From assembly GCA_004213645.1 (NCBI GenBank), contig SGZF01000008.1, forward strand, positions 1 through 42,892: a DNA stretch of 42,892 nucleotides, given 5' to 3'. Position numbers and translations under genes: made by a program. The notes under the pieces are model-generated. The model saw nothing but the letters and a program-made list of their open reading frames with translations, had not been told where the DNA came from and searched no databases. Shown one piece after another: positions 6,974-28,575 of this stretch. This DNA is from Flavobacteriales bacterium (lineage in GTDB: Bacteria > Bacteroidota > Bacteroidia > Flavobacteriales > Flavobacteriaceae). How positions within the stretch are numbered: position 1 is the stretch's first letter; every line of letters starts with the position of its first letter.

Positions 6974-7720
6974 TTAAGTTAACATTCCTCCATCTACGTG
7001 AAGAACTTGTCCGGTTATATAATTTGAAAGATCTGAGGCTAGAAAAACACATGCATTTCCAACATCACTTGGACTTCCACTTCTTTTGAGTGGAATACTT
7101 TCTTTCCAAGAGTTGATGACATCTTCAGAAAGAGAATCAGTCATATCGGTTTCAATAAATCCTGGGGCAATAACATTGCTCCTAATATTTCTTGAACCAA
7201 GTTCAAGAGCTACAGACTTAGAAAAGCCTATTATACCTGCTTTAGAAGCAGAATAGTTAGATTGTCCTGCATTTCCTTTAACACCAACTACAGAACTAAT
7301 ATTTATTATAGAACCACTTCTCTGTTTTAAGAATGTTCTAATTGAAGCTTTTGTTAAATTAAATACAGATGATAAGTTTGTGTTAATGACAGAATCAAAA
7401 TCCTCTTTATTCATTCTCATAAGAAGATTATCTTTTTTTATACCTGCATTATTAACTAGTATATCAATTTTTCCAAAATCTGAAATAACATTGTCAACTA
7501 GTTTTACAGAATCATCATAGTTGGAAGCATCACTTTTATATGATATTGACTTAATTCCAAGATCATTTAAATCAGAGACTAAATTTTCAGCTGATTCTTT
7601 AGAGTTATTGTAAGTAAATGCAACATTACAGCCATTTTCAGCGAAAGATTGACAAATAGCTCTACCTATACCCCTACTTCCACCAGTAACAACAGCAACC
7701 TTTGATTCAAGTAATTTCAT
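6974..7720 (-). CDS. fabG: 3-oxoacyl-[acyl-carrier-protein] reductase
   Basis: NADPH-dependent reduction of 3-oxoacyl-ACP in fatty-acid elongation. At 248 residues it is a classical short-chain dehydrogenase: cofactor loop TGGSRGIGR (12-20), NNAG (90-93), and the catalytic set N115, S143, Y156, K160, spaced as in the well-studied E. coli enzyme. The GNAGQSNYSASKAG block and a C-terminal ITGQVLHVDGGM are characteristic of FabG rather than sugar or alcohol dehydrogenases. Its start shares one base with the sucD stop. It lies in an operon with lipid A genes, consistent with supplying hydroxyacyl chains to both phospholipid and lipid A synthesis. Confidence 0.95.
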   Translation of the reverse strand: MKLLESKVAVVTGGSRGIGRAICQSFAENGCNVAFTYNNSKESAENLVSDLNDLGIKSISYKSDASNYDDSVKLVDNVISDFGKIDILVNNAGIKKDNLLMRMNKEDFDSVINTNLSSVFNLTKASIRTFLKQRSGSIINISSVVGVKGNAGQSNYSASKAGIIGFSKSVALELGSRNIRSNVIAPGFIETDMTDSLSEDVINSWKESIPLKRSGSPSDVGNACVFLASDLSNYITGQVLHVDGGMLT

Positions 7721-8592
7721 TAATTAAGTATTTCTTTTACAGTTTTACCGATATCTGCAGGAGAGTCTACTACATTTATTCCTGATTCTCGCATAATTCT
7801 TTTTTTTGCAGATGCAGTATCATCTTTTCCACCAATAATAGCTCCAGCATGGCCCATTTTTCTTCCTTTAGGAGCAGTTTCACCAGCAATAAATCCAACA
7901 ACAGGTTTTTTATTTCCATTATCTTTTACCCATCTAGCTGCATCTATTTCTAGCTTTCCTCCTATTTCCCCAATTAAAACAATAATATCAGTATTATCAT
8001 CGTCCATAAAAAGCTGAACGGAGTCCATTAATGTTGTTCCAATTATTGGATCACCCCCTACTCCTATTGCTGTAGAAATACCGTATCCAGATTTTACAAC
8101 TTGATCAGCAGCTTCGTAAGTAAGTGTGCCAGACTTAGAGACTATTCCAACATTTCCTTTTTTAAAAACAAATCCTGGCATAATTCCAATTTTAGCTTCT
8201 TCAGGTGTAATTATTCCTGGACAATTTGGACCAATAAGTCTGATATTTTTACCACTTATATATGAAATTACTTTAGTCATATCATTTACTGGTATACCCT
8301 CGGTTATAGCAACTATAGTCTCTATGCTAGATTCAGCAGCTTCCATTATAGCATCTGCTGCGAACATTGGAGGTACAAATATTATAGATGTATTTATTTG
8401 CTCAGTTATGAGTGCTTCAGCAACACTATTATAAACAGGTTTTTCAAGATGTTTTGTGCCACCTTTTCCAGGAGTTACTCCACAAACTATATTTGTTCCA
8501 TAATCAATCATTTGTTGAGAATGAAAAGTACCTTCACTCCCTGTAAATCCTTGAACTAAAACTTTAGAGTTTTTGTTAACTATTATACTCAT
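7720..8592 (-). CDS. sucD: Succinyl-CoA ligase, alpha subunit
   Basis: Alpha subunit of the TCA-cycle enzyme that converts succinyl-CoA to succinate with ATP or GTP formation. The 290 residues include the CoA-binding N-terminal fold (VLVQGFTGSEGTFH, GVTPGKGG), the GPNCPGIITPEE block, and the phosphorylated histidine in GHAGAIIGG (H248). The beta-subunit gene sucC is not next to it, which is common in Bacteroidota. It sits between efp (20-base gap) and fabG (1-base overlap), so a central metabolic gene is embedded in a lipid/envelope operon. Confidence 0.97.
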   Translation of the reverse strand: MSIIVNKNSKVLVQGFTGSEGTFHSQQMIDYGTNIVCGVTPGKGGTKHLEKPVYNSVAEALITEQINTSIIFVPPMFAADAIMEAAESSIETIVAITEGIPVNDMTKVISYISGKNIRLIGPNCPGIITPEEAKIGIMPGFVFKKGNVGIVSKSGTLTYEAADQVVKSGYGISTAIGVGGDPIIGTTLMDSVQLFMDDDNTDIIVLIGEIGGKLEIDAARWVKDNGNKKPVVGFIAGETAPKGRKMGHAGAIIGGKDDTASAKKRIMRESGINVVDSPADIGKTVKEILN

Positions 8593-8612
8593 TAGTATAC
8601 TTTATGACAAAT

Positions 8613-9176
8613 TTATTTTATTCTTTCGATATACTGACCTTTTTCAGTATCAATTTTTACTTTATCACCCTCATTAATAAATAAAGGGACATTAATACTA
8701 GCGCCAGTTTCTAAGGTAGCAGGTTTAGTAGCATTTGTTGCAGTGTTACCTTTTACTCCTGGTTCAGTTTGAGTAACTTCTAGAATAACATTAAGGGGCA
8801 TATCAACAGAAAGTGGATTGTTATCTTCCATATTAATTATAATATTAACATTTTCACCCTCTTTTAAAAGGTCTGGATATTCAATCTTGTTTTTGTCAAT
8901 TGTAATCTGATTGAAATCATCATTATTCATAAAGTGAAAATGATCAGTATCACTATAAAGAAATTGATACTGATTTGTAACAATTTTTACCTCTTCAATT
9001 TTATGTCCAGAAGGAAATGTATTATCAAGTACTTTTCCATTTGTAACACTTTTTAATTTTGTTCTTACAAAAGCTGGACCTTTACCAGGTTTAACATGAA
9101 GAAATTCAATTATTTTATAAATATCATGATTATACTTGATGCAAAGACCCTTTCTAATATCACTTGTGCTTGCCAT
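8613..9176 (-). CDS. efp: Translation elongation factor P
   Basis: Binds between the P and E sites of the ribosome and relieves stalling at polyproline stretches. The 187-residue length and three-beta-barrel layout are normal. The loop that reaches the peptidyl-transferase centre reads KPGKGPAF, with K32 at the tip where E. coli carries the modified K34, so this is the lysine-type rather than arginine-type EF-P. No epmA/epmB candidate is in the window, so whether the lysine is modified cannot be told. It lies 3 bases after lpxA and 20 before sucD, in the same operon. Confidence 0.97.
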   Translation of the reverse strand: MASTSDIRKGLCIKYNHDIYKIIEFLHVKPGKGPAFVRTKLKSVTNGKVLDNTFPSGHKIEEVKIVTNQYQFLYSDTDHFHFMNNDDFNQITIDKNKIEYPDLLKEGENVNIIINMEDNNPLSVDMPLNVILEVTQTEPGVKGNTATNATKPATLETGASINVPLFINEGDKVKIDTEKGQYIERIK

Positions 9177-25193: not shown

Positions 25194-25859
25194 ATGGAAA
25201 TCTTATTGTCAGCTAAACATATTTCAAAAACTTTTAATGGTAAAAAAGTTCTTGATAATGTAAATATTGAAATAAATGAATCAGAAGTAGTTGCGATAAC
25301 AGGAACTTCAGGTGCCGGTAAGACAACTTTATTAAATATCTTAAGTACTCTAGATAAACCTGATTTAAATAATAAATCTTCATTAATCATTGATAACGAT
25401 AACATATTTAACCTATCTAATATTAAATTAGCAAATCTACGAAATGAAAAAATTGGATTTGTTTTTCAATTTCACGAGCTAATTCCAGAACTTACTGTTT
25501 TAGAGAATGTCTCTCTTCCTGGGTGGATTAAAAATGACGATAGTGTGGAAAAAAAAGCTAAAGGTTTATTAGATTATCTTGGCTTAATTGATTTTATTGA
25601 TAAAAAGCCATCTACTCTATCTGGAGGAGAAAAACAAAGAGTTGCTATAGCAAGGGCATTAATTAATAAACCTAAAATTATTTTTGCTGATGAACCAACA
25701 GGTAATCTTGATTCAAAAAATTCAAAAATTTTATTTAACCTTCTTTTTAAATTAAGAGATAACTATAATTGTTCGGTGGTTATTGTAACTCATAATGAAA
25801 AAAATGCAAATATTTGTGATAGAAAACTATTAATTATTGATGGTAAAATCAAAGATTAA
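25194..25859 (+). CDS. lolD: Lipoprotein-release ABC transporter ATPase (LolD-type)
   Basis: ATPase of the LolCDE-type machine that releases lipoproteins from the inner membrane. The 221 residues have Walker A GTSGAGKTT (37-45), the signature LSGGEKQRVA (142-151), Walker B IIFADEPTG with D166/E167, and a final VTHNEKNA switch histidine. The 'HELIPELTVLENVSLP' block fits the LolD/MacB subgroup. No permease gene is alongside, as often in Bacteroidota. A MacB-like or FtsE-like role cannot be excluded. It overlaps the next gene by 20 bases. Confidence 0.85.
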   Translation: MEILLSAKHISKTFNGKKVLDNVNIEINESEVVAITGTSGAGKTTLLNILSTLDKPDLNNKSSLIIDNDNIFNLSNIKLANLRNEKIGFVFQFHELIPELTVLENVSLPGWIKNDDSVEKKAKGLLDYLGLIDFIDKKPSTLSGGEKQRVAIARALINKPKIIFADEPTGNLDSKNSKILFNLLFKLRDNYNCSVVIVTHNEKNANICDRKLLIIDGKIKD

Positions 25860-26619
25860 TATCCCAAACCTGAAAGATTTCTTAGATGAGAAATCTGCTA
25901 AATATGAATCTCCTTCTTTTATAAAAGATGACCCAATAATTATCCCACATCAATTTAGTAATATCAAGGATATTGAGATTTCCGGATTCTTAACATCTGT
26001 CATTTCATGGGGAAATAGAAAATCAATTATTAAAAGTGCAAAGAAGATTATTGAGTATATGGAAAATTCTCCATACGATTTTATTAAAAATCATACAGAT
26101 AGTGATTTAAAAACTATTAATGAATCTATTCATAGAACATTTAATCTTATTGATCTTAATTATTTTATAAAATCTCTTAAAAATATTTATAATGAATATG
26201 AGGGTATTGAAGAGATATTGTCCAATAAAAATAATGGATCAAATCTTCAAGAACGCATTTCTACATTTAAAAACATTTTTTTTAGTTTAAATTGTCCTAA
26301 AAGATCATTAAAACATTTACCGTCTCCAATAAAAGGATCAAGTGCTAAAAGATTTAATATGTATTTAAGGTGGATGGTTAGATCAAATAATAATGGTGTT
26401 GATTTTGGAATATGGAATAAAATTAGTAGTTCTGAACTATCTATTCCATTAGATGTTCATACTGGAAGAATAGCTAGATCACTTGGATTATTAGAAAGAA
26501 AGGTAAATGATTCAAAGTCAGTTACTGAAATTGATAATAAATTAAGAAAAATGGATCCAATTGATCCAGTAAAATATGACTATGCTTTATTTGGATTAGG
26601 AGTTTATGAAAATTTTTAA
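25840..26619 (+). CDS. TIGR02757 (DUF2400) family protein
   Basis: A 259-residue conserved protein of unknown function. Signature blocks are DFLDEKSAKYESPSFIKDDP at the start, ISWGNRKSII, SSAKRFNMYLRWMVR in the middle and LSIPLDVHTGRIARSLGLL near the end, which I recognise as TIGR02757. The fold of the family is thought to be related to helix-hairpin-helix glycosylases, but no catalytic Lys/Asp pair is obvious here. I use the ATG at 25840, inside lolD; a TTG one codon earlier is open as well. Confidence 0.85.
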   Translation: MVKSKINIPNLKDFLDEKSAKYESPSFIKDDPIIIPHQFSNIKDIEISGFLTSVISWGNRKSIIKSAKKIIEYMENSPYDFIKNHTDSDLKTINESIHRTFNLIDLNYFIKSLKNIYNEYEGIEEILSNKNNGSNLQERISTFKNIFFSLNCPKRSLKHLPSPIKGSSAKRFNMYLRWMVRSNNNGVDFGIWNKISSSELSIPLDVHTGRIARSLGLLERKVNDSKSVTEIDNKLRKMDPIDPVKYDYALFGLGVYENF

Positions 26620-26653: not shown

Positions 26654-26661
26654 TAGTTTTG
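26654..26661 (+). promoter_or_regulatory. TAGTTTTG promoter motif before dihydroorotase homologue
   Basis: A perfect TAnnTTTG -7 element, 16 bases before the ATG at 26678, in the 58-bp gap after the TIGR02757 gene. No -33 TTG at the expected distance. It suggests that the dihydroorotase homologue and esterase have their own promoter. Confidence 0.45.
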
Positions 26662-26677
26662 TTAAATTCTTTTACAA

Positions 26678-27940
26678 ATGAGTATACTCATAAAATCCGC
26701 AACCATAGTAGATAGTAAGAGTAACTTAAATTTCAAAAAAAAGGATATTTTAATTAGAGATGGTGTAATTATTGATATTGCAGACAATATTAACTCTAAT
26801 ACAAAACAAACATTAAACTATAAAAATTTACATATTTCAAGAGGTTTTATAGATACTTCAGTAAGCTTTGGTGAGCCAGGATTTGAAGAAAGAGAAAATA
26901 TCTTAAATGGATTGCTTGCAGCTGCTTCATCGGGTTTTACCTCAATACTCCTCAATCCTGATTCAAATCCCTTAGTTGATAATCATTCTGCAGTTCAGTT
27001 TTTGAAAAAGAAATCTTCAGAAACTACAACTAAAATATATCCTGTAGCTAACCTTACCGTTGATTCAAATGGAAAGGACCTAGCATCACTTTATGATATG
27101 AAACTTGCTGGCGCTATTGCCTATGGAGATTATAAAAAATCAATTGTAGATTCCTCAATTTTAAAGATTGCACTTGAATATACTAAAACATTTGGAGGTA
27201 GAGTAATTTCCTTCTGTCAAGATGATTTTCTTTCAAAAGAAGGAGTTATAAATGAAAGTATTGTTAGTACTAAATTAGGTTTGAGGGGGATCCCTGATAT
27301 TTCTGAATCAATTAATATATTCAGAGACATTGAGATACTAGGCTATACAGGAGGTAAAATCCATATACCTTATGTAAGTACAAAAAAAGGTGTTGATCTA
27401 ATAAGAGATGCTAAAAAGAGAAAACTTGATATAACAGCAAGTGCTAGTTTACCTCATATAATATATACTGATAATGATATCCCCGACTTTAATACTAACT
27501 TTAAGATTATGCCACCTCTTAGATCTGAAGATGACCTTATATCTCTAAAAAAAGGTTTAATTGATGGGACTATTGACTATATAACAAGTATGCATGAACC
27601 TCAACATATAGATAATAAAAAAGTAGTATTTGATGATGCCTCTTTTGGTTCAATTGCTTTAGAGTCTGTATTTGGATTAATGTGTAACAATTTCACTCTT
27701 GAAAAGACTATAGATATATTAACAAGAAAGAAATCTGTCTTTGAAATTGAAGATCATTCAATAAAAGTTGGCTCTAAAGCTGACCTTACATTATTTAATC
27801 CAGATAAAAATTATGAATTTTCTCAAGATCATATTTTATCAACATCAAAAAATTGTATGTTCATTGGAAAAAAATTAAAAGGCATTATATATGGATCAAT
27901 AAACAACAAAATGCATACTCTAAATAAATTATGGACTTAG
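26678..27940 (+). CDS. Dihydroorotase homologue lacking the metal-binding residues
   Basis: A 420-residue amidohydrolase with class I dihydroorotase layout, but the active site is gone. Where the enzyme has D-x-H-x-H-x-R-E-P-G it reads DTSVSFGEPG, so ligand positions 61 and 63 are Ser and the substrate Arg is Gly. The EHCED histidine is Phe (SFCQDD), the HVST histidine is Tyr (HIPYVST, Y232), and the catalytic Asp of TDHAP is Met (SMHEP, M305). The fold blocks around these remain recognisable. From memory, related Bacteroidota proteins share DTSVS. It is likely non-catalytic, perhaps a partner of aspartate transcarbamoylase like known inactive dihydroorotases. Overlaps the esterase gene by 10 bases. 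Confidence 0.88.
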   Translation: MSILIKSATIVDSKSNLNFKKKDILIRDGVIIDIADNINSNTKQTLNYKNLHISRGFIDTSVSFGEPGFEERENILNGLLAAASSGFTSILLNPDSNPLVDNHSAVQFLKKKSSETTTKIYPVANLTVDSNGKDLASLYDMKLAGAIAYGDYKKSIVDSSILKIALEYTKTFGGRVISFCQDDFLSKEGVINESIVSTKLGLRGIPDISESINIFRDIEILGYTGGKIHIPYVSTKKGVDLIRDAKKRKLDITASASLPHIIYTDNDIPDFNTNFKIMPPLRSEDDLISLKKGLIDGTIDYITSMHEPQHIDNKKVVFDDASFGSIALESVFGLMCNNFTLEKTIDILTRKKSVFEIEDHSIKVGSKADLTLFNPDKNYEFSQDHILSTSKNCMFIGKKLKGIIYGSINNKMHTLNKLWT

Positions 27941-28575
27941 ATTTTTTAATTAGAAGAGCTAATTATAATAAAGAAAAAGTTGGATGTATTTTCATGTTTC
28001 ATGGATATGGAAGTAATAAGGAAGATTTATTTTCACTTGAACAATATCTTCCAAAGTCTCATACAATAATTTCTTTAGAAGCCCCCCTTAAACTTAGTTT
28101 TGGAGGATTTTCTTGGTTTGACATAGATTATTCTGATGTCATTGAAAACAACCTAGACAAAAGATATAAAGAAATAAATCAGAGTATTCAGAATTTGTTG
28201 GATAATATTGATAAACATATTAATAATGAAAATTTAAATAAAGATGATATAAGCATTTTAGGATTTAGCCAAGGTGCTAGCATATGTTGGAAATTAGGTC
28301 TAGATTATAGTTCTAGATTTAGAAGAGTAATCCCTTTAAGTTCATTCATTCACCCATCGTATCTAAACAATAATCTTGAAAATTATAACGATATTCTAAT
28401 TTATAGTTCTCACGGAGTATTAGATGATGTTATTCCAATAAATCTTGTTGAAGAATATATATTACAATTATCTAAGAGAAATAATTTAACTTTTGACAAA
28501 TTTAACTCTGGGCATACAATTTCACAGGAAAATCTTTTAAATCTTATCAGCTGGTTAAAAAAAACTGATAATTAG
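27931..28575 (+). CDS. Alpha/beta-hydrolase, phospholipase/carboxylesterase type
   Basis: A 214-residue serine esterase of the YpfH / phospholipase-carboxylesterase group. The oxyanion block is FMFHGYGSN (22-30), the nucleophile is S113 in GFSQGAS, the acid is D165 in HGVLDDVIP, and the histidine is H195 in SGHTIS. The conserved APLKLSFGGFSWFDID loop is also typical. No signal peptide, so cytoplasmic. The natural substrate is unknown. The 10-base overlap with the dihydroorotase homologue suggests coupled expression. Confidence 0.9.
   Translation: MDLDFLIRRANYNKEKVGCIFMFHGYGSNKEDLFSLEQYLPKSHTIISLEAPLKLSFGGFSWFDIDYSDVIENNLDKRYKEINQSIQNLLDNIDKHINNENLNKDDISILGFSQGASICWKLGLDYSSRFRRVIPLSSFIHPSYLNNNLENYNDILIYSSHGVLDDVIPINLVEEYILQLSKRNNLTFDKFNSGHTISQENLLNLISWLKKTDN

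Follow-up and report, generated by a model that had tools for sequence, protein, structure and literature searches.

The window (the whole stretch of DNA analysed here, 42,892 nucleotides) carries a gene for a dihydroorotase-like protein without metal ligands, called here pseudo-dihydroorotase (pseudo-DHO; protein P0001). Its frame is open throughout its 420 codons, as the initial annotation stated. The flanking genes and the codons found at the metal-ligand columns of active dihydroorotases (DHOs) are listed in Table 1.

Table 1. Features of the pseudo-DHO locus. Positions are those of the window; the residue numbers of the ligands are those of the Aquifex enzyme.
Feature	Positions	Strand	Description or basis
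DUF2400 / TIGR02757 protein, upstream	25837..26619	+	profile matches
Pseudo-DHO gene (P0001)	26678..27940	+	420 aa, ATG to TAG, stop included
Codons 61-65: S61 and S63 (HxH pair), G65 (substrate Arg)	26858..26872	+	alignment
Codon Y152, column of ligand Asp153	27131..27133	+	alignment; ligand as named in the available text of PMC3880350
Codon F179, column of His180	27212..27214	+	alignment
Codon Y232, column of His232	27371..27373	+	alignment
Codon M305, column of Asp305	27590..27592	+	alignment
Phospholipase/carboxylesterase-type hydrolase (PF02230), downstream	27931..28575	+	first 10 bp shared with the end of the pseudo-DHO gene

Residues 2-408 of P0001 align without large gaps to solved type I DHOs, in line with the claimed preservation of the DHO fold. 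Among solved structures, the Aquifex enzyme matches best, both bound to aspartate transcarbamoylase (ATCase; 3d6n, E 9e-64) and free (1xrf). DHO models give the best profile scores, yet these lie far under the cut-offs (PRK09059: 297 bits; cut-off: 645). A Pfam search returned no family at an E-value of 0.01 or better. The predicted single-chain model, built for P0001 and three relatives (records titled 'uncultured Bacteroidetes'), has a mean pLDDT of 30.5 and a pTM of 0.25, too low to serve as a structure.

The ligand columns were taken from Aquifex His61, His63, Asp153, His180, His232 and Asp305, as given in the available text of PMC3880350, and from the alignment to 3d6n. In P0001 they hold S61, S63, Y152, F179, Y232 and M305. 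All six ligands are thus replaced, as the initial annotation had claimed, and its placing of the columns stands for 61, 63, 179, 232 and 305. Its column 151 is one position too low: of the two Asp in FTDDG, the ligand is the second, which precedes Gly154 and therefore corresponds to Y152. D151 is retained in P0001 and is not a ligand. G65 does stand in place of the substrate Arg, the column being Arg in 20/20 active homologues. Compared with type I DHOs (EC 3.5.2.3), homology covers the full fold, and neither the metal ligands (H, H, D, H, H, D; 0/6) nor the substrate Arg are present. The same six residues are unchanged in the three relatives (77, 77 and 75% identity to P0001). From these replacements we infer that the pseudo-DHO is catalytically inactive. 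Ligand loss alone is no proof of this, because a third PyrC paralog of Pseudomonas, distinct from PyrC' and with zinc ligands not conserved, is reported in the accessible part of PMC2770081 to have DHO activity.

The coupling to an esterase gene is real in the form of the overlap given in Table 1; an esterase homologue lies downstream in 25/26 loci of the family, mostly after a gap. The promoter-like motif assigned to the gene (TAGTTTTG at 26654) is weak: its pattern has 55 occurrences in the window, fewer than the 74 predicted by chance. In this genome (G000), the pseudo-DHO and pyrB are on different contigs (C30 and C26, respectively). With L139 set aside, pyrB was found in the flanks (1.5-3 kb) of only 1/111 class loci (26 + 27 + 58), namely L138, at a distance of about 3 kb. 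The gene directly upstream, on the same strand, is generally a BatA-type membrane gene (PF07584): 91/112 class loci (26/26, 22/27 and 43/59). The 26 other family genomes all have this neighbour; the window has the DUF2400 / TIGR02757 gene instead. A BatA-type gene beside the pseudo-DHO is absent from 5/5 distinct genomes of the window's genus (7 loci), and beside the DHO of other classes it was found in 0/20 loci. At L141 and the 90 other class loci that have it, the BatA-type neighbour encodes a protein of some 680 aa. There are hints in this arrangement of another link.

A strong homologue (E 3.5e-46 or better) is present in 135/158 sampled class genomes, and the gene is retained even in genomes of about 1.2 Mb. 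Over distinct pairs of the genus, its dN/dS is 0.07-0.12, synonymous sites being near saturation in the pairs that contain the window (L202 and L213 are the same gene in this comparison). Values for pyrB are somewhat lower (0.03-0.07); those for the esterase are 0.05-0.09 where computable. Decay is argued against by the dN/dS of about 0.1 in the genus and by the strong homologues in 135/158 class genomes. Purifying selection and class-wide retention agree with the view of the initial annotation that the gene is kept for a purpose.

An alignment of homologues at the ligand columns, proposed as a check in the initial annotation, comprises 115 rows: the window, the three relatives, 26 of the family and 85 more of the class. 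At most four of the six ligands are kept in 114/115 of them (none: 18; one: 52; two: 19; three: 24; four: 1; six: 1). The sole row with six is L139, an active homologue beside pyrB whose closest grouping in the tree is with a Hymenobacter plasmid copy. L178 (G330, 101 bits) falls under the 120-bit limit and was left out of this count. Column 61 holds S, Q, R, H, F, N, G or K, and column 232 holds T, G, N, S, H, A, P or Y. As the ligand-column residues differ between lineages, the pocket is free of any shared constraint. In a conservation profile computed without L139, L201 and L202, the six columns pass from ranks 3-54 in the actives to ranks 137-355 in the class homologues. There are 102 columns with at least 95% constancy in the 20 actives; in 54 of these the residue is unchanged in 80% or more of the class homologues. 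Conservation in the block 196-210, which follows the position of Aquifex loop A, is 0.71, as high as in the actives (0.72).

Counts of PyrI (the regulatory chain of class B ATCase), PyrB and DHO refer to the sample of 158 class genomes. PyrI is over the cut-off in 7/158 (G230, G238, G331, G357, G359, G379 and G381); in G029 the PyrI match is only sub-cut-off and full of stops. None of the 7 has a strong pseudo-DHO homologue (best E 5.6e-23), so that PyrI over the cut-off and a strong pseudo-DHO occur together in 0/158 class genomes. The PyrI chain may take the same place as the pseudo-DHO; PyrI is not known to be a DHO homologue. The 22 genomes without a strong homologue (G330 excluded) comprise the 7 with PyrI, 5 without a clear PyrB (no match in G262, G278, G310 and G336; in G267 E 5e-23 at best) and 10 with PyrB and without PyrI.

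The PyrB tree (103 sequences) places 76 of the 135 strong-homologue genomes as pseudo-DHO genomes. The 59 others are not placed as such; they include G072, which is placed besides as an active-DHO genome. The 76 form, with G330 and G270, one clade (native PyrB clade, support 0.90), in which 77/78 placed genomes have a homologue: strong in 76, and in G330 full-length and diverged, with 2/6 ligands and a BatA-type gene upstream. G270, whose PyrB lies inside this clade as sister to that of G330, is undecided because a cross-match to catalytic DHO would score as well as its best match (E 2.1e-19). Among the 17 other placed class genomes, 16 are without a strong homologue and the 17th, G072, has an active DHO beside pyrB. 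The 16 are the 7 with PyrI and 9 without it (G012, G323, four of f78 and three of f85). These 9 are also those of the 10 PyrB-without-PyrI genomes whose PyrB falls outside the pseudo-DHO PyrB clade; the tenth is G270. G323, which has no strong homologue, has a PyrB that groups with those of the PyrI type on a long branch (support 1.0), while the pseudo-DHO is kept in four further sampled genomes of this genus. No p-value is given, because the absences fall in about five lineages and are not independent genomes; masked stretches of sequence may also conceal genes.

G371 (L062, L273; same genus as G323) has a native-clade PyrB as well as a PyrI-type one, and no PyrI match; its PyrI-type PyrB is included in the trees and left out of the genome counts. 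In G368 (genome 95% complete, 360 contigs) a strong homologue is present and PyrB gave no match. PyrB is over the cut-off in 21/25 genomes of the window's genus. In a mirror-tree comparison of 22 genomes, the pseudo-DHO correlates with PyrB (r 0.826; partial r 0.495) and with the catalytic DHO (r 0.865; partial r 0.633); no specific signal was found among these 22.

A catalytic DHO of the PRK09236 type is over the cut-off in 140/158 class genomes and in 129/134 strong-homologue genomes (G072 excluded). The five others are G000 (this genome), G265, G266, G316 and G319. The catalytic DHO is also over the cut-off in all 7 PyrI genomes, in G323 and in G012, and so does not follow the PyrB-type pattern. 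In the window's genus it is over the cut-off in 9/25 genomes. No PRK09236-type or other catalytic DHO is visible in G000, part of which reads N; such stretches are also found in genus relatives, and 12/21 loci examined have long N runs. A loss of the catalytic DHO in G000 was considered and dropped, as the stretch of N in this genome and in its relatives could hide the gene. The empty search result for G382 was dropped as a loss on account of the same N stretches.

In other classes of the phylum, 20/20 fetched homologues (20 fetched of 173 matched genomes) keep all six ligands. The DHO is directly behind pyrR-pyrB in 7/20 of these loci; in the other 13, the fetched 2 kb contain no pyrB. Relative to the actives, the class homologues group in a single clade (FastTree support 0.997 with L139, 0.644 without it). 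A wider tree contains 64/114 class pseudo-DHO rows with alphaproteobacterial and other references added, and places no Pseudomonas sequence. There, the class pseudo-DHOs and a Rufibacter plasmid copy form a clade (support 0.593), which joins the active DHOs of the phylum (0.748) apart from the alphaproteobacterial group with Sinorhizobium meliloti. L139 and a Hymenobacter copy fall outside the class pseudo-DHO clade in the wider tree. Supports of this size are modest, and on this branching it is likely that the ligands were lost independently in this class.

The known system closest to the role proposed below is the Pseudomonas PyrC' or pDHO (class A2 ATCase; PMC7053772), likewise a DHO homologue without zinc ligands. 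In the available text of PMC7053772, the pDHO of P. aeruginosa is described as inactive and needed for ATCase activity; it forms a dimer, PyrB depends on it to become an active trimer in a dodecamer, and it is proposed to keep the PyrB trimers together. The pseudo-DHO shares with a class A2 pDHO the absence of zinc ligands and substrate residues and the co-occurrence with a particular ATCase catalytic chain. Adjacency to pyrB, which is usual and not strictly defining for that class, is not found. The Pseudomonas complex is shown biochemically according to the same source. In the present class the gene does not adjoin pyrB and most often follows a BatA-type gene. Also, unlike the alphaproteobacterial homologues sampled, the pseudo-DHO groups with the active DHOs of its own phylum (0.75) in the tree described above, where Pseudomonas is not represented. 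It is probably a further variant alongside the known class A2 pDHO.

A second comparison is with smc01361 of S. meliloti ('PyrX'): like P0001, the pyrB-adjacent S. meliloti homologue aligned here retains no ligand at the six columns (R, F, G, G, E, S) and has G in place of the substrate Arg. As reported in the accessible part of PMC5929573, a catalytic PyrC is encoded elsewhere in that genome and disruption of smc01361 causes pyrimidine auxotrophy. Unlike the window gene, smc01361 adjoins pyrB, has this known phenotype and occupies a separate tree branch. The DHO of Aquifex aeolicus (class A1 ATCase, 3d6n), the best solved sequence match, forms a dodecamer with ATCase. Unlike P0001 it has intact ligands and is active in the complex, according to the available text of PMC3880350; the same source reports that loops disordered in the free DHO become ordered in the ATCase complex, which keeps its activity when alanine replaces both beta-site histidines. 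No description of a pseudo-DHO in this phylum was found in the literature searched.

The pseudo-DHO is rather likely to be a non-catalytic partner of ATCase (PyrB), as in the class A2 ATCase of Pseudomonas. P0001 fits this role: it conserves the fold and, near loop A, the block 196-210, its pocket is eroded and its presence follows the ATCase type. The active relatives beside pyrB in other classes and the precedents in Pseudomonas and S. meliloti also speak for it. Against it count the distance of the gene from pyrB, the BatA-type neighbour, the mirror-tree result and the strong homologue of G368 with no PyrB match. The structural partnership that the initial annotation offered as one hypothesis stands as regards distribution: the pseudo-DHO tracks a single PyrB clade, and a strong pseudo-DHO homologue was not found with PyrI or other PyrB types. 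The physical complex is the part that we infer, together with the order of events, the stoichiometry and the need of PyrB for the pseudo-DHO. The gene would descend from a type I DHO akin to the active one in the pyrR-pyrB-pyrC operons of other classes. The catalytic metal site would have been lost while a second DHO (PRK09236 type) carried out the reaction, and the protein would have been retained as a non-catalytic ATCase subunit. By analogy with the ATCase-DHO dodecamer of Aquifex and the ATCase-pDHO dodecamer of Pseudomonas, dimers of the pseudo-DHO may bridge two PyrB trimers, stabilising and perhaps regulating them in the place taken by PyrI dimers in the E. coli-type ATCase. A broader proposal is more speculative and, on present evidence, rather doubtful: across nearly the whole class, a PyrI-type chain may have been replaced by a dead DHO of independent origin acting as regulatory and assembly subunit of ATCase, and its emptied, variable active site may hold lineage-specific effector sites.

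Other readings of the gene were weighed. It is unlikely that the pseudo-DHO has left pyrimidine synthesis to serve as an envelope scaffold or sensor with its BatA-type membrane neighbour. This would account for the upstream, same-strand position of that gene in 91/112 class loci, a link older than the family; against it, the window's genus keeps the pseudo-DHO without an adjoining BatA-type gene (5/5 distinct genomes) at a dN/dS of about 0.1, and loss of the pseudo-DHO accompanies a change of PyrB type. Catalysis of a new small-molecule reaction, metal-free or with different metals, is quite improbable. The fold and many barrel residues are kept (54/102 of the columns constant in the actives), but the pocket varies most (columns 61 and 232), and proteins with a new reaction in common should have similar pockets.

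That the protein is the working DHO of the organism by unusual chemistry is very improbable. No PRK09236-type or other DHO is visible in G000, the Aquifex complex is active without both beta-site histidines (PMC3880350, available text) and the Pseudomonas PyrC paralog without zinc ligands is said to be active (PMC2770081, accessible part). However, P0001 also lacks the alpha-site His pair, Asp153, Asp305 and the substrate Arg, 9/25 genus genomes have a catalytic DHO over the cut-off, and the absence in G000 means nothing where part of the genome reads N. A functionless relic under decay would explain the ligand loss and the gene in two pieces in G294; it is scarcely credible in view of the intact frame, the dN/dS of 0.07-0.12 and the retention in genomes of about 1.2 Mb and in 135/158 class genomes.

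If the pseudo-DHO is an ATCase partner, many proteins of the class named 'dihydroorotase' (e.g. the Rufibacter plasmid copy) would be ATCase subunits, and the class would have an ATCase type not described in the literature searched. The phylum would also offer a natural series, from an active subunit (pyrRBC operon) to a dead subunit to loss with other PyrB types, and a direct test of the retention of a pseudoenzyme after its chemistry has been handed over.

Some individual copies differ from the general pattern. In G294 (C1:3673936-3675179), the pseudo-DHO gene is split into two adjoining pieces, by a frameshift or a sequencing error. An active-looking type I DHO with intact ligands is encoded beside pyrB in L139 (2989-4359) and in L325 (2498-3775, Hymenobacter volaticus plasmid); of two trees, one places this branch outside the clade of the class, in which nearly all other sampled copies are dead. 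The pseudo-DHO of Rufibacter tibetensis plasmid 2 (L321; NZ_CP012645.1, 12.5 kb; 7672-8952) has all six columns replaced (S, F, G, R, Q, G) and sits between a hypothetical protein and two DUF4199 proteins.
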